From Streptomyces sp. AM 4-1-1 (GTDB lineage: Bacteria > Actinomycetota > Actinomycetes > Streptomycetales > Streptomycetaceae): a stretch of DNA of 64,000 nucleotides. The notes beneath the pieces are model-generated. The model was not told where the DNA came from and searched no databases. It saw only the letters and a list, made by a program, of their open reading frames with translations. Each line of letters opens with the position of its first letter. Positions within the stretch are counted from its first letter, which is position 1. Shown piece after piece: positions 2,609 to 12,919 of the stretch. Position numbers and translations under genes: made by a program. The stretch covers positions 6,944,001 to 7,008,000 of the forward strand of contig NZ_CP119145.1 of NCBI RefSeq assembly GCF_029167625.1. The letters are read 5' to 3'.

Positions 2609-2937
2609 GGATCGACTCCTCTTCCGCGGTCGGCGCCGACGACCTCCGGGAACCGGACGGACCGCACGACCGTAGTCCCGACCCCCACACCCTACGCACC
2701 GGTAGGCAGTGGGTGTACCCCGGACCGGTGATCTTCACAGCCGTTTCCCGGACGTCCCCCTGGACGTGCACGACACGGACGACGGACGACGGACCCCGGC
2801 GCGGTGGCGGGGCGCGGCCGGCCTCGACCTGACACGTCGCGACACCGGTCGCCCCGGCCGGCCCGCGAGGTCCGTGCCGACCGCGGGGCCGGACATCCAC
2901 CTCCGGCGGCCGGTCGGGGTGACGGCGCGTCGGACGG

Positions 2938-3597
2938 TCAGGCGCGCCACTGGGCCGTGCGCTCCGGGGAGGCCGACGCCAACGCCTTCACGATGGCGTC
3001 GGCATCGCCCTGGTTGCCGTAGACGGGCGTGCCGGGCTGCTGCCGCCACGACTCGTCCAGGCCACCGGCGTCCACCGTGTCGAATCCCAGCTCGTCGATG
3101 AGGTCGCGCACGAGCCGTTTCGCGGCCTGGTCGTCCCCGGCGACGGGCAGCGCCTGGCGGCCGGGACTGCCCTGGGGTCGGCCGTTGTCGAGGATGTCCT
3201 GCGCGTACGTCCCGTTGAACGCCTTGATCACCGGGTGGCCGATCCGCTCCTGCGTCCACAGGCTCTCCGGCAACCCGCCCTCGATGGCCGCGATACGGCC
3301 GTCGCGCTGCTGCGGGTAGTAGTTGCCCGTGTCGATGACCGCGACACCGTCCGCCGCCCCGTCGAGGAAGCCGGTGGGCAGGTCGGGAACGGCCTTGAGC
3401 GGAACGGTGACCACGACGACCTGTGCTCCCCGCGCCGCGTCCGCCGCGGCGACCGGCGTGGCTCCCGTCTCCTCGGCCAGCGCGCCGAGCGTGTGCGGAC
3501 CACGGGAATTGGCGACCGCGACCTCGTGCCCGAGGGCGGTGAGACGCCGGGTGAGGTTGCCGCCGATATTCCCGGCTCCGATGATGCCGATCCTCAT
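2938..3597 (-). CDS. NAD(P)-binding reductase of the F420-dependent NADP reductase-like family
   Basis: The protein of 219 residues opens with MRIGIIGAGNIGGNL, a classic Rossmann dinucleotide-binding GxGxxG. Downstream segments (VVVTVPLKAVPDL, VAVIDTGNYYPQQ, KAFNGTYAQDI) are typical of the FNO/YrpG-like group that contains F420:NADP oxidoreductases and related dehydrogenases. It is soluble and single-domain. True FNO enzymes are near this length, but family members also include proteins without F420 activity, so the cofactor partner cannot be fixed from sequence. The gene is transcribed away from the muramidase gene, with an AT-richer shared upstream region between 3598 and 3856. Confidence 0.8.
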   Translation of the reverse strand: MRIGIIGAGNIGGNLTRRLTALGHEVAVANSRGPHTLGALAEETGATPVAAADAARGAQVVVVTVPLKAVPDLPTGFLDGAADGVAVIDTGNYYPQQRDGRIAAIEGGLPESLWTQERIGHPVIKAFNGTYAQDILDNGRPQGSPGRQALPVAGDDQAAKRLVRDLIDELGFDTVDAGGLDESWRQQPGTPVYGNQGDADAIVKALASASPERTAQWRA

Positions 3598-3856
3598 GAT
3601 TCCGACCCTTCGAAGTTACCCATGTGAAGAAAAGATGAACAGATCGCACAGTTGGGGGAGTTGAAGAAAACATCCCTCGCGGTATCGCCAACTCCTCGCG
3701 TGCGGTACCTATTCCAAGGTCCTTATTTCGAACCTCAGAACGAGGGTGACAATCGGCAAAACGTTCCTACTTGGGGCGGACGGATGGGAACCGGTCACCA
3801 TGGGCAGCAATCGGGACGAGAAACGGAATACCCCGACTCGCTTCGAGGTGGTGCCC

Positions 3857-4408
3857 ATGCTGAACGGCGTCGATGTCAGCTCATACCAGTCGTCCTTCGA
3901 TACGGACGGCCTGGACTTCGTCTTCATAAAGGCGACCGAGGGCCGCTCGTACGTGAATCCGCGCCTGACCGACCAGGCGAAAAGGGCGCGCGACGCGGGC
4001 TGCGTGGTCGGCTTCTACCACTTCCTGTGGCCCGGGAATATCGCGGCGCAGGCCGAGTACTTCCTCGCCAAGGCGCCGGAGAAGGCCGGGGACCTCCTTG
4101 CCGTCGACTGGGAACAGACCGGCGAGGGGACCTGGGCGAGCAACACGGACAAGGACAAGTTCATCCGGGAGGTGAAGCGGCTGAGACCACATCATCGTGT
4201 GCTGCTCTACTGCAATCGCACGTTCTGGCTGAACCGGGACACCACCTCGTACGCCGGGGACGGTCTCTGGATCGCCGACTACGTGACCCCCGGCAAACCC
4301 AGAATTCAGGCGTCCTGGCGCTTCCACCAGCACACCGACCGGCCGCTCGACAAGGATGTGGCCGACTTCGCCTCGCGCAAGGCGCTGCGCGACTGGGCCG
4401 CCGGGTAG
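3857..4408 (+). CDS. Glycoside hydrolase family 25 (N-acetylmuramidase-like) protein
   Basis: The core begins MLNGVDVSSYQ, the GH25 N-terminal strand carrying the first catalytic-site Asp, and continues with FIKATEG, a GFYHF strand and AVDWEQ, where the general acid Glu of GH25 lies in the DxE motif. The C-terminal part (WIADYV, ASWRFHQHT) also fits. At 183 residues it is about the size of a bare GH25 catalytic domain. The longer open frame reaches back to 3746, but the ATG at 3857 sits behind a GAGGTG motif and begins exactly at the domain. No signal peptide is visible from this start, so it may act inside the cell or be exported by lysis. It would cleave the beta-1,4 bond between MurNAc and GlcNAc. 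Confidence 0.85.
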   Translation: MLNGVDVSSYQSSFDTDGLDFVFIKATEGRSYVNPRLTDQAKRARDAGCVVGFYHFLWPGNIAAQAEYFLAKAPEKAGDLLAVDWEQTGEGTWASNTDKDKFIREVKRLRPHHRVLLYCNRTFWLNRDTTSYAGDGLWIADYVTPGKPRIQASWRFHQHTDRPLDKDVADFASRKALRDWAAG

Positions 4409-4534
4409 CGGACACGCCGTACGGGACGCGGGGGCGAAAGGCGGCGCGGGGTTCGGGACGCGCGGGGACACCTCTCGCGCACCCCCTGAGCGGTCCCGTA
4501 CGGGAAAGCGCGGGTCGTCGCCGTCGGACGACCG

Positions 4535-4897
4535 TCAGGGTCGGGGCTCCGGTCGTTCGGTACGACCGGAGCCCGACGAGGTCGCCTTCGGGACCGAGTG
4601 CGTGAGGGACTTCTCGGGTGCGGTGCGGCGCCGGGCGTTCGCGGCGGCCGAGTGCAGCGAGCGCAGGGCGAGCAGCAGGATGCCGATGTCGTCGAGGTAG
4701 ACCGGATCGGGCAGCAGATCGACGGGCGACACGGTGTAGATCATCGCGGCCCAGACGAGTGCCTTGTTGTGCAGCGGAATTCCGGAGTCCAGCAGCATCT
4801 TCCTGGCCCGGACCACACGGACCAGGAGAACGGCCGCGATCCCCATGGTGAGTAGCGCGCCGACCGCGCCGAGCGTGAGCCATGCCGTGGTGTCCAT
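4535..4897 (-). CDS. YkvA/DUF1232-like small membrane protein
   Basis: From the ATG at 4897 the product is 120 residues: one N-terminal transmembrane helix (WLTLGAVGALLTMGIAAVLLV), a basic turn (RVVRARK), and then a segment KALVWAAMIYTVSPVDLLPDP...LDDIGILLLALR. That segment has the SPxDLxPD and LDD signatures of the DUF1232 family. The C-terminal tail is charged and disordered. The family function is not established. An upstream in-frame ATG at 4909 is an alternative start; the frame itself reaches 5008 but the extra residues are arginine-rich and unlikely to be translated. Confidence 0.75.
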   Translation of the reverse strand: MDTTAWLTLGAVGALLTMGIAAVLLVRVVRARKMLLDSGIPLHNKALVWAAMIYTVSPVDLLPDPVYLDDIGILLLALRSLHSAAANARRRTAPEKSLTHSVPKATSSGSGRTERPEPRP

Positions 4898-5402
4898 GGC
4901 TCTACGCATACCCCGAGGCCGGCGGACGACCGCGCACGCCACGGGCCGGCCCTCGTCCGTACGGCGCACCGGCCGCCGTCGCCCCCGGGCCGGGTCCGGG
5001 TTTCCCACCTGAGACGTACACTCCAGTCATGGGCCACACATACGCGGTGAGGGAGTGCCTGCCGAAGGCTCCTCGCACGCTCAGCCCTACTGCGCCGTGG
5101 GCGCACTGCCGGGCCCTGCACGGCCACGGCTGACCGCCTTCTGACGCGCCACCCCCGTTCTGCCTGATCTCCTGACGGGTCTTTTCGACGGATCTTCGTA
5201 CGACCTTCCGTATCTCTCGTCATCCCTCGTCCCGATGGGACCGCCCCGCATCACCCGGATCACTCCGCTGCCCTTCGCGCAGCACCCGCACCACATCCGC
5301 AGTACCCCGCGCACCACTCTCGCGGCTCCTCGGCGCACCGGACCTGTCACTCTGTGTGATTTTCCGGTGAGCCGTCCCGGCCGCACCCTCGAAGGGACCC
5401 CC
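4898..5402 (+). other. Intergenic region upstream of the MurE paralogue, with a possible 34-codon leader ORF
   Basis: About 500 bases separate the divergent YkvA-like gene and the Mur ligase gene. A short ATG frame at 5029-5133 encodes 34 residues and is preceded at once by GTACACT, a plausible -10 hexamer placed as for a leaderless transcript; no good -35 is visible. Its peptide has no run of one amino acid that would indicate classical attenuation. The remainder holds no open frame with convincing coding bias. Low confidence beyond its being a long 5' region. Confidence 0.3.
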
Positions 5403-6896
5403 ATGAAGCTGAGCGAGTTGCTGGCCGGACACGACCATGAGGTCCTTCTGGGGGACCCGGAGACCAGGATCACCGCCGGGGCGTGCCTCGACGCTCACCG
5501 CGTATCGCCCGGGTCGCTCTTCGTCGCGGTGCCCGGCCACCGGGAGGGCGGCACGGAGGCCGTCGGCTCGGCCCTGGCACGCGGCGCCGTGGCGGTGTTC
5601 GTCGAGGCCGAGGCGCCCGACCTGCCGGCGGCGGTGTGGACCTCGGCCGCCGACGCCTGTGTCGTTCGCGTGCCGGACACGCGTGCGGCGGCGGCGCTCG
5701 TCGCCTCCCGTTATTACGGACAACCGGGACAGGCCATGGACATGGTCGCGATCACCGGCACCAACGGGAAGACATCGATCTCGTACATGGTCGAATCCCT
5801 CCTCCGCATCGCCGAGGGCGCCAAGGTGGGAGTCATCGGGACGGCGGGCAGCCGCATCGGCGACGAACTGATCCCGATGCCACGCTCGGTGCTGACCACC
5901 CCGGAGGCTCCGGACTTCCAGTACCTGCTGGGACACATGCGCGACCACGAGGTGGGCACCGTGGCCCTGGAGGCCACCTCCATGGGACTTCTGGAGCGAC
6001 GGGTGGACCACTCCTTCATCGACGTGGGCATCTTCACCAATCTCACCCAGGACCACCTGGACGACCACGGCACCATGGAGAACTACCGGGACGCCAAACT
6101 CCGCCTGTTCCAGGGACTGTGCCGACGCGCGGTCATCAACGCGGACGATCCGGTGGGGGCCACCGTCGCGGCACTGATGCCGGACGCCTCCGTCACGTAC
6201 GCCCTCGACACCGAGGCCGACTACCGGGCGACCGATCTCAGCATGAACGCCTTCGGGACCCGCTTCACCCTGCACCACGCCGGAAGCAAGTACCCGGCGG
6301 CGATTCCGGTACCCGGCCGGTTCTCGGTCTCCAACGCGCTGGCCACCCTCGCCGCCTGTCACCTCCTCGGCCACGACCTGGCCGGACTGGTCGCCGCGCT
6401 GGACCGGATGCCCCCGGTGCCCGGCCGGCTCGAACGCTTCGAGACCCCGCAGGGCGCGGCCGTGATCGTGGACTACGCGCACTCTCCCGACTCGCTGGAC
6501 AAGGTGCTCTCCGCCATCCGGGACTTCGCACCCGGCCGGGTGCTCACGGTGTTCGGCTGCGGAGGCGACCGGGACGTGACCAAGCGGGTCCGCATGGGGC
6601 AGATCGCGGGTGCCCGCTCCGATCTGTGCGTGCTCACCTCCGACAACCCCCGGGACGAGGACCCCGAGGCGATCATGGATCAGATCGCCCCCGGTATCAG
6701 GGCGACCGGCACACCGTTCGCACGGTTCGCCGATCGTCGTGAGGCGATCGCCCACGCGCTGTCCGCCGCCCGGCCGGGCGACATCGTGCTGGTCGCGGGG
6801 AAGGGCAGTGAGCCGTACCAGATCGTCGGGGAGCGGCTGATCCCGTTCAGCGACATGGCGACGGTCCGCGAACTCTCCGCGGAGCGGACGAGCTAG
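5403..6896 (+). CDS. Mur ligase, UDP-MurNAc-tripeptide synthetase (MurE) paralogue
   Basis: The 497-residue protein has the three-domain Mur ligase layout. Residues 118-124 (TGTNGKT) form the ATP P-loop, a TTPEAPD segment follows, then ALEATSMGLLERR and FTNLTQDHLDDHGTMENY. The C-terminal domain carries TSDNPRDEDPEAI with D414-N415-P416-R417. DNPR is the motif that MurE enzymes use to select diaminopimelate rather than lysine. MurE normally adds the third residue to UDP-MurNAc-L-Ala-D-Glu. The gene is not inside a division and cell-wall cluster, so it is probably a second copy with a special role; the housekeeping copy would be elsewhere. The frame extends to 5235, but the ATG at 5403 follows GAAGGGACCCCC and begins at the conserved N-terminus (MKLSELL). 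Confidence 0.85.
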   Translation: MKLSELLAGHDHEVLLGDPETRITAGACLDAHRVSPGSLFVAVPGHREGGTEAVGSALARGAVAVFVEAEAPDLPAAVWTSAADACVVRVPDTRAAAALVASRYYGQPGQAMDMVAITGTNGKTSISYMVESLLRIAEGAKVGVIGTAGSRIGDELIPMPRSVLTTPEAPDFQYLLGHMRDHEVGTVALEATSMGLLERRVDHSFIDVGIFTNLTQDHLDDHGTMENYRDAKLRLFQGLCRRAVINADDPVGATVAALMPDASVTYALDTEADYRATDLSMNAFGTRFTLHHAGSKYPAAIPVPGRFSVSNALATLAACHLLGHDLAGLVAALDRMPPVPGRLERFETPQGAAVIVDYAHSPDSLDKVLSAIRDFAPGRVLTVFGCGGDRDVTKRVRMGQIAGARSDLCVLTSDNPRDEDPEAIMDQIAPGIRATGTPFARFADRREAIAHALSAARPGDIVLVAGKGSEPYQIVGERLIPFSDMATVRELSAERTS

Positions 6897-7271
6897 GGAC
6901 TTCCGTCCGGGTCAGGCCGGGCTCGCGGGCTCCGGCACCGCACCTCACGGCGATGTCGTCGGTCGGCACGGCTCCGCCATGACTCCCTCCTCCGCCTCGC
7001 GGCGCACGGCACCGGAGTCCGCTCCCCGATCCGGGCTGACCCAGACGAAAGGCCCTGGCCGACACGCGGTCCGCCTGTCCTCTTTCGAGTGATGATGCGA
7101 CTGCCGGCCATTGGGGCCGACGGACTGTCGCTCCCTTCCCTTCCATACGTGTGACCAGGCACGGAACGTCCCGATAGGGGACGCCGCGGCCGTCGTGGAC
7201 ACCTCCGCGCCCGTACCCGGCCGACACGTCGGGCGGGCGAGAATGCCGGGACACACGTCATTCAGGGAGGG
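6897..7271. other. Intergenic gap between the MurE paralogue and the SNF2 gene
   Basis: These 375 bases contain several overlapping minus-strand frames, but none has a recognisable domain, a good ribosome binding site or consistent third-position bias. I see no clean terminator hairpin after the Mur ligase stop. The segment presumably carries the promoter of the SNF2/SWIM pair; no convincing -35/-10 pair stands out. Confidence 0.4.
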
Positions 7272-10200
7272 ATGTTGACGGCGCAGCGCCACGGCCGGGC
7301 GACCATCGGAACCCCGGCCGCCGCACCGCACCCGTCGACGGGTGGCACCTCGGCGGCGGCGCCCACGAGGCGGCGGCCCCTGTCCGCTCTCGACGCCGGA
7401 GAATGGAGCGACCACCTCGCAGCCGCCTGCGTCCACGGCGACCTGACGGGCGGTCTCGGGGCCGAGGCGGTCCGCCGGACCGCCTCTGGGCTGATGTCGC
7501 TGCGGGATCTGCGGATGGTGCTGCTCGTCGCGGACGCCCGCGATGTCTGGGCACCCGTCCGGGAGGCGGCCCTGGCCCACGCGGCCCGCGTCCCGGAGAC
7601 CGCGCGGGACGTCCTGCAACTGCACTGCCAGCTCGAAATGTGGCCCCCGACGGGGTTCACCGACACCCGCGACGTCTCGGACGGCGCGGGGACCTCCTTC
7701 GAGGTCGTCGCCCGGGCCGGGCTGCCGGGCCACGAGGTCACCGGACCGGCCCACCGGGGCCCGACCCGGCAGCACGCCCGCGACCGGGCGGCGACCGGTC
7801 TGCTCGCCCGGCTGGCCGGCGCCACCGATCCGCTCGCCCCCACCGAGCTGCCCCGCCCCCGTGCGACCGGCGACAGCGTTCACGGACTGGGAGCGGAGGC
7901 GTTCGAGGTCCTGCTGGACGAACGCGTCTGCTCCGACACACCCGGCCCGCGCCTGCTGGACGAGCTGCTGCGACGTGCGGAACAGGGCAGGTTCCAGCAC
8001 CGCCACATGTACCAGCTCCTGTTCACCGCCCATGGCCCCGGCTGGCACGAGGCCCGGGTCGCGGCGCTCGACGTCGTCGCGCAGCGCTCCGGATTCGCCG
8101 AATCCCTGCTGGTCATGCGGGCCAAGGAGCTGGGCGTACCAGGGCCGGTCTACGAGCAGAGCAGCCGACCCGGCCCCGGCTCGGAGGCGCCCTCGTACCT
8201 GACCACCGCACGGTTCGATCCGGGCGGCGGGCCGGTGAACGGGGCCCCGCGAAGCGCGCGTGGACGCAGGTCCGCCCGGCACCGCGCGTCGGTCGGTCTG
8301 CTCGCGGCCCTGACCGCCCTGCCCGAGACGGTGGTGCGTCTGCCCGACCTCCCCGACCCCGACCCGCCGACGGTCTCGCCCGCGCCGGACCGGGCGGAGC
8401 GGGCGGCGGAGGACCGCGACGAACGCAAGCGCCGCCGTACCAACGCGCTGATGGACCTCAACCAGCTGAAGATGGATCACGTCATCGGCAAGCCGGAGTG
8501 GGTGTACGAGCGCACCGGGTCCGCGCACCAGCCCGCGTTCGTCTGTACCGGCCGCTGTCCGTACGACGGGCGGACGGTCGAGGCCAGGGGGCACGGAGGT
8601 TCGAAGGCGGACGCACGCATGGCCGCCGCGTCCGCGCTGCTCCGGTTGCTGCCGACAGCGGGCGGAGCTTCGAAGCCCCCGGCCGGACGGCCGCCCACGG
8701 CGCCCGTACCCACGGTCGCGTCGTCCGCCCACTCGGCCGCCGCCGACGCCCTGCGCGGCGGCTGCGCCCTGACCCTCCTCATGGACGGACCCGCCGACGG
8801 CCCCCACTTCCTGCTCTACCGCCCCGACGGCCGTCCGATGCCCGCGGCGACCCCGGCGGCGGCTCTGCCAGGGGCGGTCAGGGAACTGGTCCTGGCCCGC
8901 GATCACGGCGTCCGCCGCGTCCCGGTGGCGGGATGGGCCCTGCCGCTGCGCCCCGCCGTCCGCACACTCCTCGCTCTCGACGGCGACCGGGCCCTCCATC
9001 CCTCCGCCCAGGCGTGGCAGGCGGCCACCCGTCTGGGACTGGGGCTGGTCGCCGCCCGACTCGTCCATCCGGCGCTCGGCGACGACGGCCGGGACGCCTG
9101 GCACGTCGGCCCGCTCACCGGCCCCGTGCTCGGAGCCGTTCGACACATCGCCGAACAGATGCCCCCGCACGCGCACTGCCGAGCGCTGCCCGCTCCCGAC
9201 GGTGCCCCGCGCATCACCACACCGCTGCACGCCGTGGAGGCATTCCTCCACGTCCTGGCCGACACCCTCGTCCGCACCCCGGGTGCCCACGCGCTCTTCG
9301 GCGACGGGCCGTTCCTCTCGGCCACCGGGGAGCCCGCGCCCGCGCTGCGGCGGTGGGCGGACGACATCGAGGACCGGGCCGACCCCGCCCCGCGCCCTCG
9401 GCTGCTCCTGACCGTCCATCCGCCCTCGGACACCGATGCGGCCGCCCAACACCTGCGCTCCACACTGTCGTTGTATCCGGACGACGACGAAGCCGGAGCC
9501 GCCGGGCCCGTCCCCGCCGACGACGTGTGGTCCGGTCGGCATCCCGGCGCCGACTCGCCGCTGAGGCGCCGCCAGGTCCGCCGCGCGCTGCGCCGGATCG
9601 CGGACATCTGGCCGGCCGCCGCACGACTGGCCACCTCGGCTGCCCCCGCCCGGCTGAGGCTGTCCGTCGCGGAGGCCGTGCGGCTCGTCGCCGAGGCCGA
9701 GCCGCTGGCGGCGGCCGGATTCCGGGTGCGCTGGCCCGAAGGGCTCATCGACGCGCTCACCACCCGAACCGTCGTCGGCAGCCGGTCCGCAACGCCGGAA
9801 TCCCGGCTCGGGCTGGAGCAACTGATCGACTTCCGATGGCAGTTGGCACTGAACGGGCAGGCGCTCACCGAGGCCGAGATGGACGCCCTGGCGGAAGCCG
9901 CGCGTCCCCTGGTCCGGCTGCGCGACACCTGGGTCCTGCTCGACGAGACCACCGTGCACCGAGCCGCCCATCGGGGCCTCGCCTCGCTCAACGGCGCCGA
10001 CGCCCTGGGCGCCGCGCTGTCCGGAAGCGTGAGTGTCGACGGCGCGACGTACGCCTGTGAACCCGCGGACGGCCTCGCCCAGTTGATCGCGGCCCTGCGC
10101 GCCGACGCCTCCGAGGCCGCCCCCCTGCCCCCGCCCCGGGCACTCCGCGCCCGACTGCGCGGATATCAGCACCGGGGCCTGACCTGGCTGGCCCGCATCA

Positions 10201-11573
10201 CCGAACTCGGTTACGGTGCCTGCCTCGCCGACGACATGGGCCTGGGCAAGACACTCACCTCGATCGGGCTGATCCTCCACCGCCAGGAGGCCGGCGCCGC
10301 GCGGCCCACGCTCGTCGTCGCCCGCGCCTCCCTCGTCACCAACTGGGTCAGGGAGATCCGGCGCTTCGCTCCCCGTACCCCCGTTGTCGCCTACCACGGG
10401 CCCGGTCGCACCCTCGTCGACGTCACTTCGGACACGGTCGTCGTCACCACGTACGGCATCCTGCAACGCGACACCGGCCCGCTGACGGCCGTCGACTGGG
10501 ACCTGGTCCTGGCGGACGAGGCGCAGAGCGTCAAGAATCCGGCGACGGCCGCGGCCCGTCGGCTGCGTGAACTGACCGCCGCCGCCCGCGTCGCCGTCAC
10601 CGGCACCCCCGTCGAGAACCGCCTCGAAGAACTCTGGGCGATCATGGACTGGGTCAACCCCGGACTGCTCGGCACCCGCACGGCCTTCCGCGCCCGCTAC
10701 GGCCGCGACGCCGAGCGCGACACCACGGGAGAGGCCGCCCGCCGACTGGGCCGCGTCATCAGCCCGTTCCTGCTGCGCAGGCTCAAGAGCGATCCGGGCA
10801 TCGCGCCCGAACTGCCCGACAAGGTCCACTCCCGGCGGATCGTGCGGCTCACCCGTGAACAGGCGGCGCTCTACGAGGCCGCGGTGCGCGAGACGCTGGC
10901 CGCCATCGGCGAGAGCGCGGGTATCACCCGGCACGGCCTGGTCGTCCGACTGCTCACCACACTGCGGCAGATCTGCGACCACCCGGCCCACTACCTCAGG
11001 GAACCCGGCCCCCGGCACGCCGACGAGGCCCCCGGATTCGCCGCCCGCTCGGCGAAACTCGGGGCCCTGGACGAACTCCTCGACCAGATCACCGCCTGCG
11101 ACGAGTCCGTCCTGATCTTCACCAGCTACGTCGAGATGGGGCGTCTCCTGCACGCCCACTGCGCGGCCCGTGGCCTGGCGCCGAGTTTCCTGCACGGCCA
11201 GACGTCCCTGACGGAGCGTCAGCGCATGGTCGACGCCTTCCAGGCGGGACGCGTCCGGGTGCTCATCCTGTCCGTGAAGGCCGCGGGGGTCGGTCTCAAC
11301 CTCACCCGGGCCACCCACGTCGTCCACTACGACCAGCAGTGGAACCCCGCCGTCGAGGACCAGGCCACCGACCGCGCCCACCGCATCGGCCAGGACCGCA
11401 CGGTCACGGTCCACCAGCTCATCAGCGAGGCGACCCTGGAGGACCGCATCGCCGCACTCCTGCACCACAAGCGGGCCCTGACCGATGCCGTGCTGACCAG
11501 TGGCGAAGGCGCCCTGGCCGACCTCGACGACGATGAACTCGCCCAGCTCGTCACCCTCGGGAGCACCCCATGA
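7272..11573 (+). CDS. SNF2-family ATPase with N-terminal double-stranded-RNA-binding-like repeats
   Basis: A 1433-residue protein. The C-terminal third is a SNF2 motor: RGYQHRGLTWLARI (about 960), DDMGLGKT (987-994, Walker A), DEAQ (1082-1085, motif II), FLLRRLKSDP and ATDRAHRIGQ (motif VI, about 1363). Before it lies a region resembling the bacterial SNF2-associated domain (RLSVAEAVRLVAEAE..., PLVRLRDTWVLLDE). The N-terminal third is unusual. I read three dsRBD-like folds at about 113-183, 277-348 and 392-462. The third is best, keeping GSAHQPAF in the loop that enters the minor groove and SKADARMAAASALLRLL as the RNA-facing helix; the first two keep the final helix (ARDRAATGLLARL, ARHRASVGLLAAL) but not the GxxH loop. 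Each of the first two is preceded by a helical stretch. Typical bacterial SNF2/SWIM partners are about 900-1100 residues. The SNF2 call is certain; the dsRBD reading is by eye. Confidence 0.9.
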   Translation: MLTAQRHGRATIGTPAAAPHPSTGGTSAAAPTRRRPLSALDAGEWSDHLAAACVHGDLTGGLGAEAVRRTASGLMSLRDLRMVLLVADARDVWAPVREAALAHAARVPETARDVLQLHCQLEMWPPTGFTDTRDVSDGAGTSFEVVARAGLPGHEVTGPAHRGPTRQHARDRAATGLLARLAGATDPLAPTELPRPRATGDSVHGLGAEAFEVLLDERVCSDTPGPRLLDELLRRAEQGRFQHRHMYQLLFTAHGPGWHEARVAALDVVAQRSGFAESLLVMRAKELGVPGPVYEQSSRPGPGSEAPSYLTTARFDPGGGPVNGAPRSARGRRSARHRASVGLLAALTALPETVVRLPDLPDPDPPTVSPAPDRAERAAEDRDERKRRRTNALMDLNQLKMDHVIGKPEWVYERTGSAHQPAFVCTGRCPYDGRTVEARGHGGSKADARMAAASALLRLLPTAGGASKPPAGRPPTAPVPTVASSAHSAAADALRGGCALTLLMDGPADGPHFLLYRPDGRPMPAATPAAALPGAVRELVLARDHGVRRVPVAGWALPLRPAVRTLLALDGDRALHPSAQAWQAATRLGLGLVAARLVHPALGDDGRDAWHVGPLTGPVLGAVRHIAEQMPPHAHCRALPAPDGAPRITTPLHAVEAFLHVLADTLVRTPGAHALFGDGPFLSATGEPAPALRRWADDIEDRADPAPRPRLLLTVHPPSDTDAAAQHLRSTLSLYPDDDEAGAAGPVPADDVWSGRHPGADSPLRRRQVRRALRRIADIWPAAARLATSAAPARLRLSVAEAVRLVAEAEPLAAAGFRVRWPEGLIDALTTRTVVGSRSATPESRLGLEQLIDFRWQLALNGQALTEAEMDALAEAARPLVRLRDTWVLLDETTVHRAAHRGLASLNGADALGAALSGSVSVDGATYACEPADGLAQLIAALRADASEAAPLPPPRALRARLRGYQHRGLTWLARITELGYGACLADDMGLGKTLTSIGLILHRQEAGAARPTLVVARASLVTNWVREIRRFAPRTPVVAYHGPGRTLVDVTSDTVVVTTYGILQRDTGPLTAVDWDLVLADEAQSVKNPATAAARRLRELTAAARVAVTGTPVENRLEELWAIMDWVNPGLLGTRTAFRARYGRDAERDTTGEAARRLGRVISPFLLRRLKSDPGIAPELPDKVHSRRIVRLTREQAALYEAAVRETLAAIGESAGITRHGLVVRLLTTLRQICDHPAHYLREPGPRHADEAPGFAARSAKLGALDELLDQITACDESVLIFTSYVEMGRLLHAHCAARGLAPSFLHGQTSLTERQRMVDAFQAGRVRVLILSVKAAGVGLNLTRATHVVHYDQQWNPAVEDQATDRAHRIGQDRTVTVHQLISEATLEDRIAALLHHKRALTDAVLTSGEGALADLDDDELAQLVTLGSTP

Positions 11574-12919
11574 CAGCCACCGCCCCGGCCCCCGCGCCCA
11601 CCACCACCGGGGGCTGGGCCGCCGCCTGGCTCGCCGCGTTCGAGGCGGCCGCCGCCGCCCCGCGGCACCTGCGGTCCGGCAAGTCTCTGCTGGGCGCCGG
11701 AACACTCGGACAGGTGAACATCAGTGCCGGTCTCGCCCACGGCAGGATCAGCACGGGGAAGGCCGGGGCCACCGTACAGCCCCGGCTCGGCGTGACCGAG
11801 GTCGCCCCCGACCGCTGGACCCGGATCTACCGGGCGATCGCGGAACGCCCGGACGTCACCGAGGCCATCGCCTCCGGCCGGTTCGTCGACGTGCTCACCG
11901 ACCCGGCCACCACCGCGGGTGTCCCGCTCGCCCCGCGGCCCGGGGACCTCTCCTTCTCCTGCACCTGCGGCCCCCGCGGAGTGGTGTGCCCGCACACGGC
12001 GGCCATCGGCTACAGCGTCGCAGACCGGCTGCGCAAGAACCCCGGCATCATCCTCAGTCTGCGGGGCGGCTCGATGAAGAGCCTCCGGGCCGCGCTGGGC
12101 CTCCGGCCGACCGCCGCCCCCGTGCCGGGCACAGTGGTCCCCGCGTCAGGGAGCACCACGCCGAGCGCCGTGCCGGACGCGGGAACGCCGGAGGTCCGGG
12201 ATCAGGGAACGCCGGGGAGCGATCCGGCCGGTCCAGGAACCGGCATGCCGGCCCACGAGGCGTTCTCGCGCTGGAACGACCGTGCCGGTGCGGTGCCCGG
12301 CCCGCCTCGCGAACCCCTCACCGGGGCACCTCTCCTGGACATGCTCCGGGACGCCCCACCCGCCCCCGCCCCCGGCCTGGACGTTCTGCGCCTGCTCACC
12401 CGCGACGCCGCCCACCGCGCCTCGGCCCTCCTCGACGGCGGCCTCCCGGGGGCCGTGCCCGGCCGGGGTGACCGGCCCGGCCCACCCGACCCGGCGGACG
12501 GGACCGATCCGCTCCTCGACGCCGCCCGGATGCTGGCCCGGCCCGAGTTCCTGCCCTGGCTGGAGAGCGCCGCCGGCCGTCTCGGTCTCACCACGGTCCA
12601 ACTGCGGCACCTCGCCCTCGCCCACGAGTACGGCGGCCCCGGCAACGTCGAGGCCGCCGCCCACCGCGTCCCGGCGGACCCGCGCGATCTCGCCCGTGCC
12701 GAGAACGCGATCCAGCCGCTCCGCCCGGCCCCCCTGGCCACCCTGGTGGGCGAGGACAACCGGCTCACCGACGCCGCGGCCCGGGTGCAACTGCGCCTCG
12801 CTGCGGGCCGCTGGTACCCGTTCGTCGACTGGCACGGCACCTGGCGCCCGGTCGCGGGCCACTGTGAGGACCCGGCCACCGCCTACCGGGCCGCACGCCG
12901 CGCCCTGCGCGGGGCGTGA
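11570..12919 (+). CDS. SWIM zinc-finger protein, partner of the SNF2 ATPase
   Basis: The ATG overlaps the SNF2 stop codon as ATGA, so the two are translationally coupled and probably work as one complex. Residues 131-142 (CTCGPRGVVCPH) form the CxC-x6-CxH SWIM zinc finger, which binds DNA or protein. After a Pro/Gly-rich linker (about 180-240) comes a long helical region with no known catalytic motif, ending in RWYPFVDWHGTWRPVAGHCEDPATAYRAARRAL. The SNF2 plus SWIM pairing is common in actinomycetes, where its role is not established. The 449-residue length and soluble character fit the family. Confidence 0.85.
   Translation: MTATAPAPAPTTTGGWAAAWLAAFEAAAAAPRHLRSGKSLLGAGTLGQVNISAGLAHGRISTGKAGATVQPRLGVTEVAPDRWTRIYRAIAERPDVTEAIASGRFVDVLTDPATTAGVPLAPRPGDLSFSCTCGPRGVVCPHTAAIGYSVADRLRKNPGIILSLRGGSMKSLRAALGLRPTAAPVPGTVVPASGSTTPSAVPDAGTPEVRDQGTPGSDPAGPGTGMPAHEAFSRWNDRAGAVPGPPREPLTGAPLLDMLRDAPPAPAPGLDVLRLLTRDAAHRASALLDGGLPGAVPGRGDRPGPPDPADGTDPLLDAARMLARPEFLPWLESAAGRLGLTTVQLRHLALAHEYGGPGNVEAAAHRVPADPRDLARAENAIQPLRPAPLATLVGEDNRLTDAAARVQLRLAAGRWYPFVDWHGTWRPVAGHCEDPATAYRAARRALRGA

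Follow-up and report, generated by a model that had tools for sequence, protein, structure and literature searches.

A Streptomyces SNF2 ATPase with an N-terminal array of dsRBD-fold repeats and helical units, coupled to a SWIM-type partner gene

Results

An SNF2 ATPase preceded by three dsRBD-fold repeats

The stretch of DNA analyzed here (the window; 64,000 nucleotides, positions 6,944,001-7,008,000 of the 7.17-Mb contig of Streptomyces sp. AM 4-1-1, whose genome of 7,465,012 bases also has a second contig of 296,355 bases) contains a gene pair in which an SNF2 ATPase, carrying three repeats of the double-stranded RNA-binding domain (dsRBD) fold interleaved with helical units ahead of its motor, overlaps the gene of a SWIM-type partner. 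The SNF2 protein is 98% identical to database protein P0001. The pair and the units of the array are as follows; percentages are matches to profiles of the RNB proteins described below (helical unit, RNB_ds1 and RNB_ds2).

7272..11573, + strand: SNF2 ATPase with N-terminal dsRBD array, 1433 amino acids (start and length equal to those of P0001)
11570..12919, + strand: SWIM-type partner, 449 amino acids (ATGA overlap with the SNF2 stop)
7395..7592, + strand: helical unit 1, residues 42-107 (AlphaFold2 helices 42-55, 60-71, 77-86 and 91-106; RNB-protein helical unit, 98.6%)
7593..7817, + strand: dsRBD-fold repeat 1, residues 108-182 (RNB_ds1, 98.4%)
7893..8093, + strand: helical unit 2, residues 208-274 (predicted model; RNB-protein helical unit, 97.0%)
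8094..8312, + strand: dsRBD-fold repeat 2, residues 275-347 (predicted model; RNB_ds1, 97.9%)
8442..8657, + strand: dsRBD repeat 3, canonical type, residues 391-462 (K445-A-D-A448-R449; RNB_ds2, 98.4%)

The first-pass annotation had proposed this arrangement from the sequence, staking it on a dsRBD fold or a profile match within residues 100-470; the predicted models contain the alpha-beta-beta-beta-alpha fold of the dsRBD. Structural matches to the N-terminal models include the dsRBDs of MLE and DHX9, and the helical units correspond to no known fold among the 50 matches listed, where dsRBDs fill the list. With the Pfam dsRBD profile PF00035 (cut-off of 23 bits), repeat 3 scored 26.6 bits as part of the N-terminal piece, 21.8 in the whole protein and 19.9 as a 96-amino-acid piece; repeats 1 and 2 gave no match, and the relative P0030 has a PF00035 stretch at the place corresponding to repeat 2. 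In profile comparison, repeat 3 matched RNase III dsRBDs at 90%, and RNB_ds1 and RNB_ds2 matched each other at 95-97%. Among 36 control comparisons the highest value was 32.6% (C_1250 against RNB_ds2) and all others were at most 5.8%; two comparisons of a helical unit with repeat 2 also scored high (A, 89%; B, 97%; 14-16 columns), but the cut-outs used overlapped and these values were discounted. Repeats 1 and 2 are assigned as dsRBDs because of their RNB_ds1 match and their fold, not through a direct RNase III match.

Identity over the N-terminal piece is 51-56% for 11 of the 12 relatives aligned and 33% for the twelfth. Across 13 aligned sequences, we compared the KKxAK positions (K1, K2 and K3 for the three lysines), which we take to be RNA-contacting. 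Repeat 1 reads [R/K]-Q-x-A-R, with a basic residue at K1 in 12/13 and at K3 in 12/13 sequences (histidine in the other). Repeat 2, where the basic R332-R333-S-A-R336 of the window protein occupies the motif, reads R-[R/K]-x-[A/G]-R (basic K1 12/13, K2 13/13, K3 12/13). Repeat 3 reads K-[A/S]-x-A-R with basic K1 and K3 in 13/13; its K445, A448 and R449 are conserved in every sequence.

The same module follows an RNB exoribonuclease domain

Three Streptomyces loci were found to carry the N-terminus without SNF2. In the proteins they encode, of 616-653 amino acids (starts chosen in the analysis), an RNB domain scoring 185-189 bits precedes a helical unit, after which come two dsRBDs; PF00035 matches each protein in two stretches, at 39-46 bits. 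A database search with this module, in which the 8000 candidates of 0.55-1.75x query length sharing most words were compared, so that other fusions may be missed, returned 21 matches, all 21 with the RNB and dsrm Pfam families; where a source is named, it is Streptomyces, Kitasatospora or Streptacidiphilus. The alignment of 23 proteins shows the RNB motif DRDDA in all but P0054, which is without that part of the sequence. The first dsRBD keeps KK-x-A-R, and the second keeps GPxHxxxF and both outer lysines in 23/23. The helical units of the SNF2 protein match the RNB-protein helical unit at 97.0-98.6%. The best support for RNA handling by the module of helical unit and dsRBDs comes from this fusion. 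The sources name these proteins merely "RNB domain-containing ribonuclease" or similar, and several lie on plasmids of 312-388 kb.

Two RNB-dsRBD genes (L052 and L053, in genomes G271 and G386) share a near-identical gene order with an open reading frame (ORF) resembling LigA and an HU-like ORF (first residues read); plasmid NZ_CP107773.1 likewise has annotated ligA and HU genes in the vicinity of its RNB-dsRBD gene. At locus L127 (G317:C186), a 249-amino-acid protein (ORF 6786-7535, - strand) lies divergently beside a dsRBD-SNF2 gene (7656-11885, + strand) and its partner. Its C-terminus resembles the second dsRBD of the RNB module (BLAST 4e-5), with no PF00035 match at E 0.05.

The SNF2 motor is intact and belongs near the SCO1167/SCO6262 family

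Behind the array the first-pass annotation had placed an SNF2 motor, and this motor is intact: PF00176, PF00271 and PF12419 were all found, as was every ATPase motif looked for.

8763..11558, + strand: helicase core, SCO1167/SCO6262-like, residues 498-1429 (NF058637)
9642..10016, + strand: DUF3670 (PF12419), residues 791-915 (101.5 bits)
10164..10988, + strand: SNF2-related ATPase domain (PF00176), residues 965-1239 (200 bits; motifs DMGLGKT and DEAQ)
11055..11390, + strand: Helicase_C (PF00271), residues 1262-1373 (73 bits; motif VI QATDRAHRIGQ)
11960..11995, + strand: SWIM motif CTCGPRGVVCPH, partner residues 131-142 (CxCx(n)CxH pattern)

Since the NF058637 match to the core begins almost at the first position of the model, residues 1-497 are an addition. 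The match scores 1024.4 bits, under the curated cut-off of 1200; by this measure the SCO1167/SCO6262 family is the nearest described one, and we do not count the protein as a member. The genome has two SNF2 paralogues lacking dsRBDs, whose cores are 46-54% identical to that of the window protein. One of them (C1:6923188-6926049) is overlapped by a SWIM gene of its own and precedes the window by about 18 kb on the same contig.

The coupled SWIM partner is shared with dsRBD-less paralogues

The expected ligand of a SWIM zinc finger is DNA or protein. The window partner contains the motif without a PF04434 match, and the homologous partner at locus L064 scores 26.8 bits; by blastp, the window partner is also homologous to the partners of the dsRBD-less paralogues. 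Among dsRBD-branch loci, 23 include the whole end of the SNF2 gene (five more are cut short of it); at 22 of these, and in both dsRBD-less paralogues of the genome, the gene terminates in an overlapping RTGA start. At the exception, L062, the gene ends in TGATG and the annotated next gene shares one base. An overlapping frame of at least 190 amino acids follows at 21 of the 22 RTGA loci; at L050 it has 30 amino acids and the partner seems to start later. The SWIM motif occurs at 16 of the 23 loci and in the later-starting partner of L050, and L067 has an overlapping frame of 212 amino acids without it. At L047-L049 and L127 a short partner (190-265 amino acids) corresponds to just the C-terminal part of the one in the window, which may therefore be the part that the motor needs.

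The ATGA-coupled two-gene unit put forward in the first-pass annotation is thus present, but it is not special to this pair: since the dsRBD-less paralogues share the RTGA overlap and have SWIM coupling, the coupling is judged from the gene ends to be ancestral. In a passage of PMC6767563, sco6262-6263 ("putative helicase; hypothetical protein") is given as one sigma-E target unit of S. coelicolor.

The array marks a rare, often plasmid-borne branch of Streptomycetaceae

Searching 392 evenly drawn Streptomyces genomes with residues 36-470 gave matches in 12 (E 1e-5), and searching them with the RNB module gave matches in 16 (E 1e-4). By architecture, the SNF2 form is present in 11 of the 392 and the RNB form in 3, G041 having both; G318, G347 and G348 hold other or partial matches. 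This N-terminus is therefore rare; the first-pass annotation would have abandoned its reading had it been common to all actinomycete SNF2 proteins of this class with another assigned fold. In 394 genomes of the class, the sole match besides the window genome's own was a 331-amino-acid frame, probably an RNase III judging by size. Among 72,556 plasmid records of PLSDB, 24 matched (22 Streptomyces, 1 Kitasatospora, 1 Embleya); 22 of these exceed 240 kb, all are typed non-mobilizable, several are near-copies and five cover the first 30% of the query only. Ten loci fetched from named genomes, in a scan reaching fewer relatives, were all Streptomyces. The SNF2 protein with a dsRBD array belongs to a branch of Streptomycetaceae that is often found on plasmids.

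In a tree of 57 SNF2 cores, built by a quick method without bootstrap, a single branch with a Shimodaira-Hasegawa-like approximate likelihood ratio test (SH-aLRT) value of 100 separates the 39 proteins with the N-terminus (labelled so if more than 300 residues precede the core) from the 18 without. A first tree of 61 rows had required three label changes, owing to L111 and L067. L111, a false extension from the choice of start codon, was relabelled, and L067 and three long-branch rows (L062, L127 and L115) were omitted, leaving one label change; near-copies or fragments accounted for 16 earlier omissions, and insufficient length for that of L123. At L067 (Embleya plasmid NZ_CP108787.1), two separate matches to the query N-terminus lie ahead of the SNF2 ORF, and the annotated gene begins after most of the matching region; the copy may have decayed, its sequence may be faulty or the start may be misassigned.

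The number of dsRBDs varies. In a sister clade of 11 proteins, counting the query P0021 (sources, where named, are Streptomyces, Kitasatospora and Streptacidiphilus), the longer members have four dsRBD-like domains, as read by eye from the alignment. Four members scanned with PF00035 scored 23.0, 27.5, 35.4 (P0026) and 30.5 bits (P0030, with three stretches). Of the other relatives scanned, P0020 scored 18.3 bits and P0002 gave no match. A paralogue on the second contig of the window genome has one helical unit and two dsRBD-like domains, also read by eye, with PF00035 at 29.4 bits over model positions 1-65. Going by these domain counts, natural variants with two, three and four dsRBDs exist.

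A PF00035 scan of 41 genomes (E 0.01) gave one strong match per genome, taken as RNase III. Beyond these it found only the window genome's two SNF2 proteins, the one in the window falling below cut-off, one protein of genome G011 and one contig-end fragment of G001. At locus L027 (G011:C23), a 1008-amino-acid protein (ORF 2897-5923, + strand) combines a dsRBD (38 bits), RNase III-like stretches (43 bits) and a histidine-kinase-type ATPase (54 bits). An overlapping second ORF (5920-7131, + strand) has a response-regulator receiver domain (62 bits), and on their domains the two could form a dsRNA-sensing two-component system. Locus L130 (G348:C15; ORF 6599-9547, - strand) encodes 982 amino acids with two dsRBD stretches (56.6 bits) and an RNase III-like region of 30.7 bits, under the cut-off of 35, and in the 233 amino acids encoded by L128 (G347:C138; ORF 7950-8651, + strand) the only named domain is a dsRBD (30.9 bits).

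Genomic neighbourhood

Eight ORFs scanned around the window pair comprise a Mur ligase, a GH25 lysozyme, an F420-type oxidoreductase, a short-chain dehydrogenase/reductase, a methyltransferase, a haem-oxygenase-like protein, a glyoxalase-like protein and one without a match; none of them points to a defence island. PADLOC matches only the SNF2 part of the window protein and nothing in the SWIM partner. Type I Zorya ZorD (NF041790; 256.3 bits against a cut-off of 1500, best stretch 1054-1381 in the SNF2 part) and DISARM DrmD (NF038317/NF038318; 58.5 and 87.4 bits against 610/950) were rejected as assignments. Among 50,697 phage records there was no match at E 1e-5, and in viral contigs, scanned with a single sequence that reaches close relatives only, two pattern matches appeared and neither was confirmed; on these grounds a phage origin was rejected.

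Of the 11 plasmid copies whose neighbours were viewed (in PLSDB gene tables, which are incomplete), 4 have a 2'-5' RNA ligase family gene nearby, 3 a TIGR02391 gene and 3 a ParA or partition gene; these counts are not independent, as several plasmids are closely related. One TIGR02391 protein checked is PF09509 Ymh (96 bits), which the section on it in PMC3710099 describes as a HEPN family with members in restriction-modification neighbourhoods.

Discussion

Domains of the dsRBD type are usually seen in RNA-processing enzymes. Since the array retains basic residues at its contact positions and an RNA-degrading enzyme uses the same module, the dsRBDs likely bind A-form duplex, whether structured RNA, RNA:RNA or an RNA:DNA hybrid, and binding of duplex RNA or hybrid by the array is the part of our reading that we hold with good confidence. 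We propose that the array would be a targeting device for such duplexes, so that a structured transcript, an antisense duplex or an R-loop still tethered to its template would bring the motor to that DNA. SNF2 motors are described in the part of PMC5512222 that deals with them as double-stranded DNA translocases. Less surely, the motor would likewise move on double-stranded DNA, with the SWIM partner as an adaptor, and at its site would strip RNA polymerase, hybrid or bound proteins. RapA or Mot1-like removers are the model for this stripping. Recruitment of a DNA motor by duplex RNA or hybrid has in our estimate about an even chance of being right, and we are equally divided over the wider view of the protein as an accessory SNF2 motor addressed by RNA to its site of action. 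The benefit might be upkeep or control of the carrier replicon, which is a guess; any particular biological purpose for the pair seems doubtful at best.

Several observations weigh against this reading. The window copy itself lies on the 7.17-Mb contig and not on a plasmid, and no conserved neighbour other than the partner gene points to one pathway at the loci viewed. Directly compared with 20 RNase III dsRBDs, repeats 1 and 2 reached 18% and 0.5%, and RNB_ds1, the bridge for both, reached only 69%. K2 is lost in repeats 1 and 3 throughout the clade and kept only in repeat 2, which makes the case for repeats 1 and 3 weaker. The net charges are -1, +5 and +3 for repeats 1 to 3. The repeat 3 loop is GSAH in the window protein, whereas most relatives have GTPK, GTPQ, GTPT or GTPH and P0020 lacks the loop. 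The dsRBD fold can bind proteins too.

Defence is one competing explanation: the dsRBDs would detect viral dsRNA or R-loops and the motor would act on invading phage or plasmid DNA. The patchy, rare distribution (11/392 genomes) fits it, as do the resemblance of the SNF2 core to the defence motors ZorD (256 bits; PADLOC model 378 bits) and DpdE (370 bits) and, near plasmid copies, the Ymh genes (TIGR02391/PF09509, HEPN family; 3/11, Pfam checked for one) and RNA ligase genes (4/11). However, ZorD remains far below its cut-off and no Zorya part is among the eight window neighbours scanned; 8 of 9 proteins scanned around one plasmid copy have no PADLOC match, the ninth (Ymh) matching two HEPN-type models weakly; and the copies with an RNA ligase neighbour are closely related and lend no independent support. 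Phage-RNA sensing, suggested in the first-pass annotation, found no direct evidence in the phage records, in the scan of viral contigs for close relatives or in the eight window neighbours, which are ordinary or unnamed. Phage defence is a possible role, and we consider a defence motor of this kind unlikely.

Equally unlikely, in our view, is that the folds act as protein-protein or DNA-binding modules, as in some eukaryotic dsRBDs, with RNA playing no role. The loss of K2, the slightly acidic repeat 1 and the divergence of repeats 1 and 2 from RNase III dsRBDs would be expected if so, but K1 and K3 stay basic in 12 or 13 of 13 sequences in each repeat, repeat 2 keeps three basic positions, and the same module is attached to an RNB exoribonuclease. 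That the protein is an ordinary chromosomal SNF2-SWIM helicase with a functionally neutral extension, as its core identity to the dsRBD-less paralogues and the coupling common to them might suggest, is very improbable given the identity of the N-terminal piece among relatives, the kept contact positions, its confinement to one supported branch and a dsRBD number that varies from two to four without decay.

Returning to an array that recognizes duplex RNA, we raise more speculatively, and without expecting it to hold in full, that Streptomyces plasmids and chromosomes plug one previously unnoticed recognition module alternately into an SNF2/SWIM DNA motor and an RNB 3'-5' exoribonuclease, which would jointly form a duplex-RNA response acting on the transcript and its template DNA. 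If true, this would functionally parallel the dsRNA-guided chromatin and RNA-decay machinery of eukaryotes, and three dsRBDs before a DNA motor, with the same module on an exoribonuclease, would link duplex RNA to bacterial DNA remodelling directly and testably. The dsRBD-SNF2 proteins can be expressed and assayed, with the natural variants in dsRBD number at hand.

Comparison with known systems

The SCO1167/SCO6262 family (NF058637) shares the core of residues 498-1429, DUF3670 and the SNF2 ATPase, and the SWIM overlap is seen in the genome's dsRBD-less paralogues; unlike that family, the window protein has a dsRBD array that precedes the model start and sets its branch apart. MLE and DHX9 likewise place dsRBDs, which are among our structural matches, before a superfamily 2 (SF2) motor. 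They are eukaryotic DExH RNA helicases with two tandem dsRBDs and no helical units between them, and differ from an SNF2 motor. RapA/HepA, an SNF2 remover of stalled RNA polymerase, is similar as a bacterial SNF2 ATPase and in the proposed way of working, but the RapA model (NF003426) scores 46.8 bits against a cut-off of 576 and was rejected as an assignment. The RNB-dsRBD ribonucleases of Streptomycetaceae share the module of helical unit, dsRBD and dsRBD (profile matches of 97-99%), whereas in them an exoribonuclease precedes it, and three 19-kb loci viewed had no SNF2 or SWIM-gene match.

Cyanobacterial HEPN-RNase III-dsRBD fusions and, separately, HEPN-SNF2 fusions provide a bacterial dsRBD on a nucleic-acid enzyme and SNF2 in conflict systems, but as presented in the relevant part of PMC3710099, dsRBD and SNF2 are not within one protein. 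The SWIM-associated SWI2/SNF2 ATPases of the SsoRad54 type share the SNF2 motor, the SWIM zinc finger and mobile replicons, and are said in the passage on them in PMC5512222 to be widespread in mobile systems; the terms dsRBD, dsRNA and double-stranded RNA are absent from the text of that paper. In line with the first-pass annotation, a full-text literature search, whose coverage leaves out most subscription papers and all bioRxiv preprints, found no described system with a dsRBD-SNF2-SWIM architecture, nor any description of dsRBDs on a bacterial RNB protein. The database's precomputed Pfam labels list these domains jointly for relatives, so annotators can see the combination even if it is undescribed.

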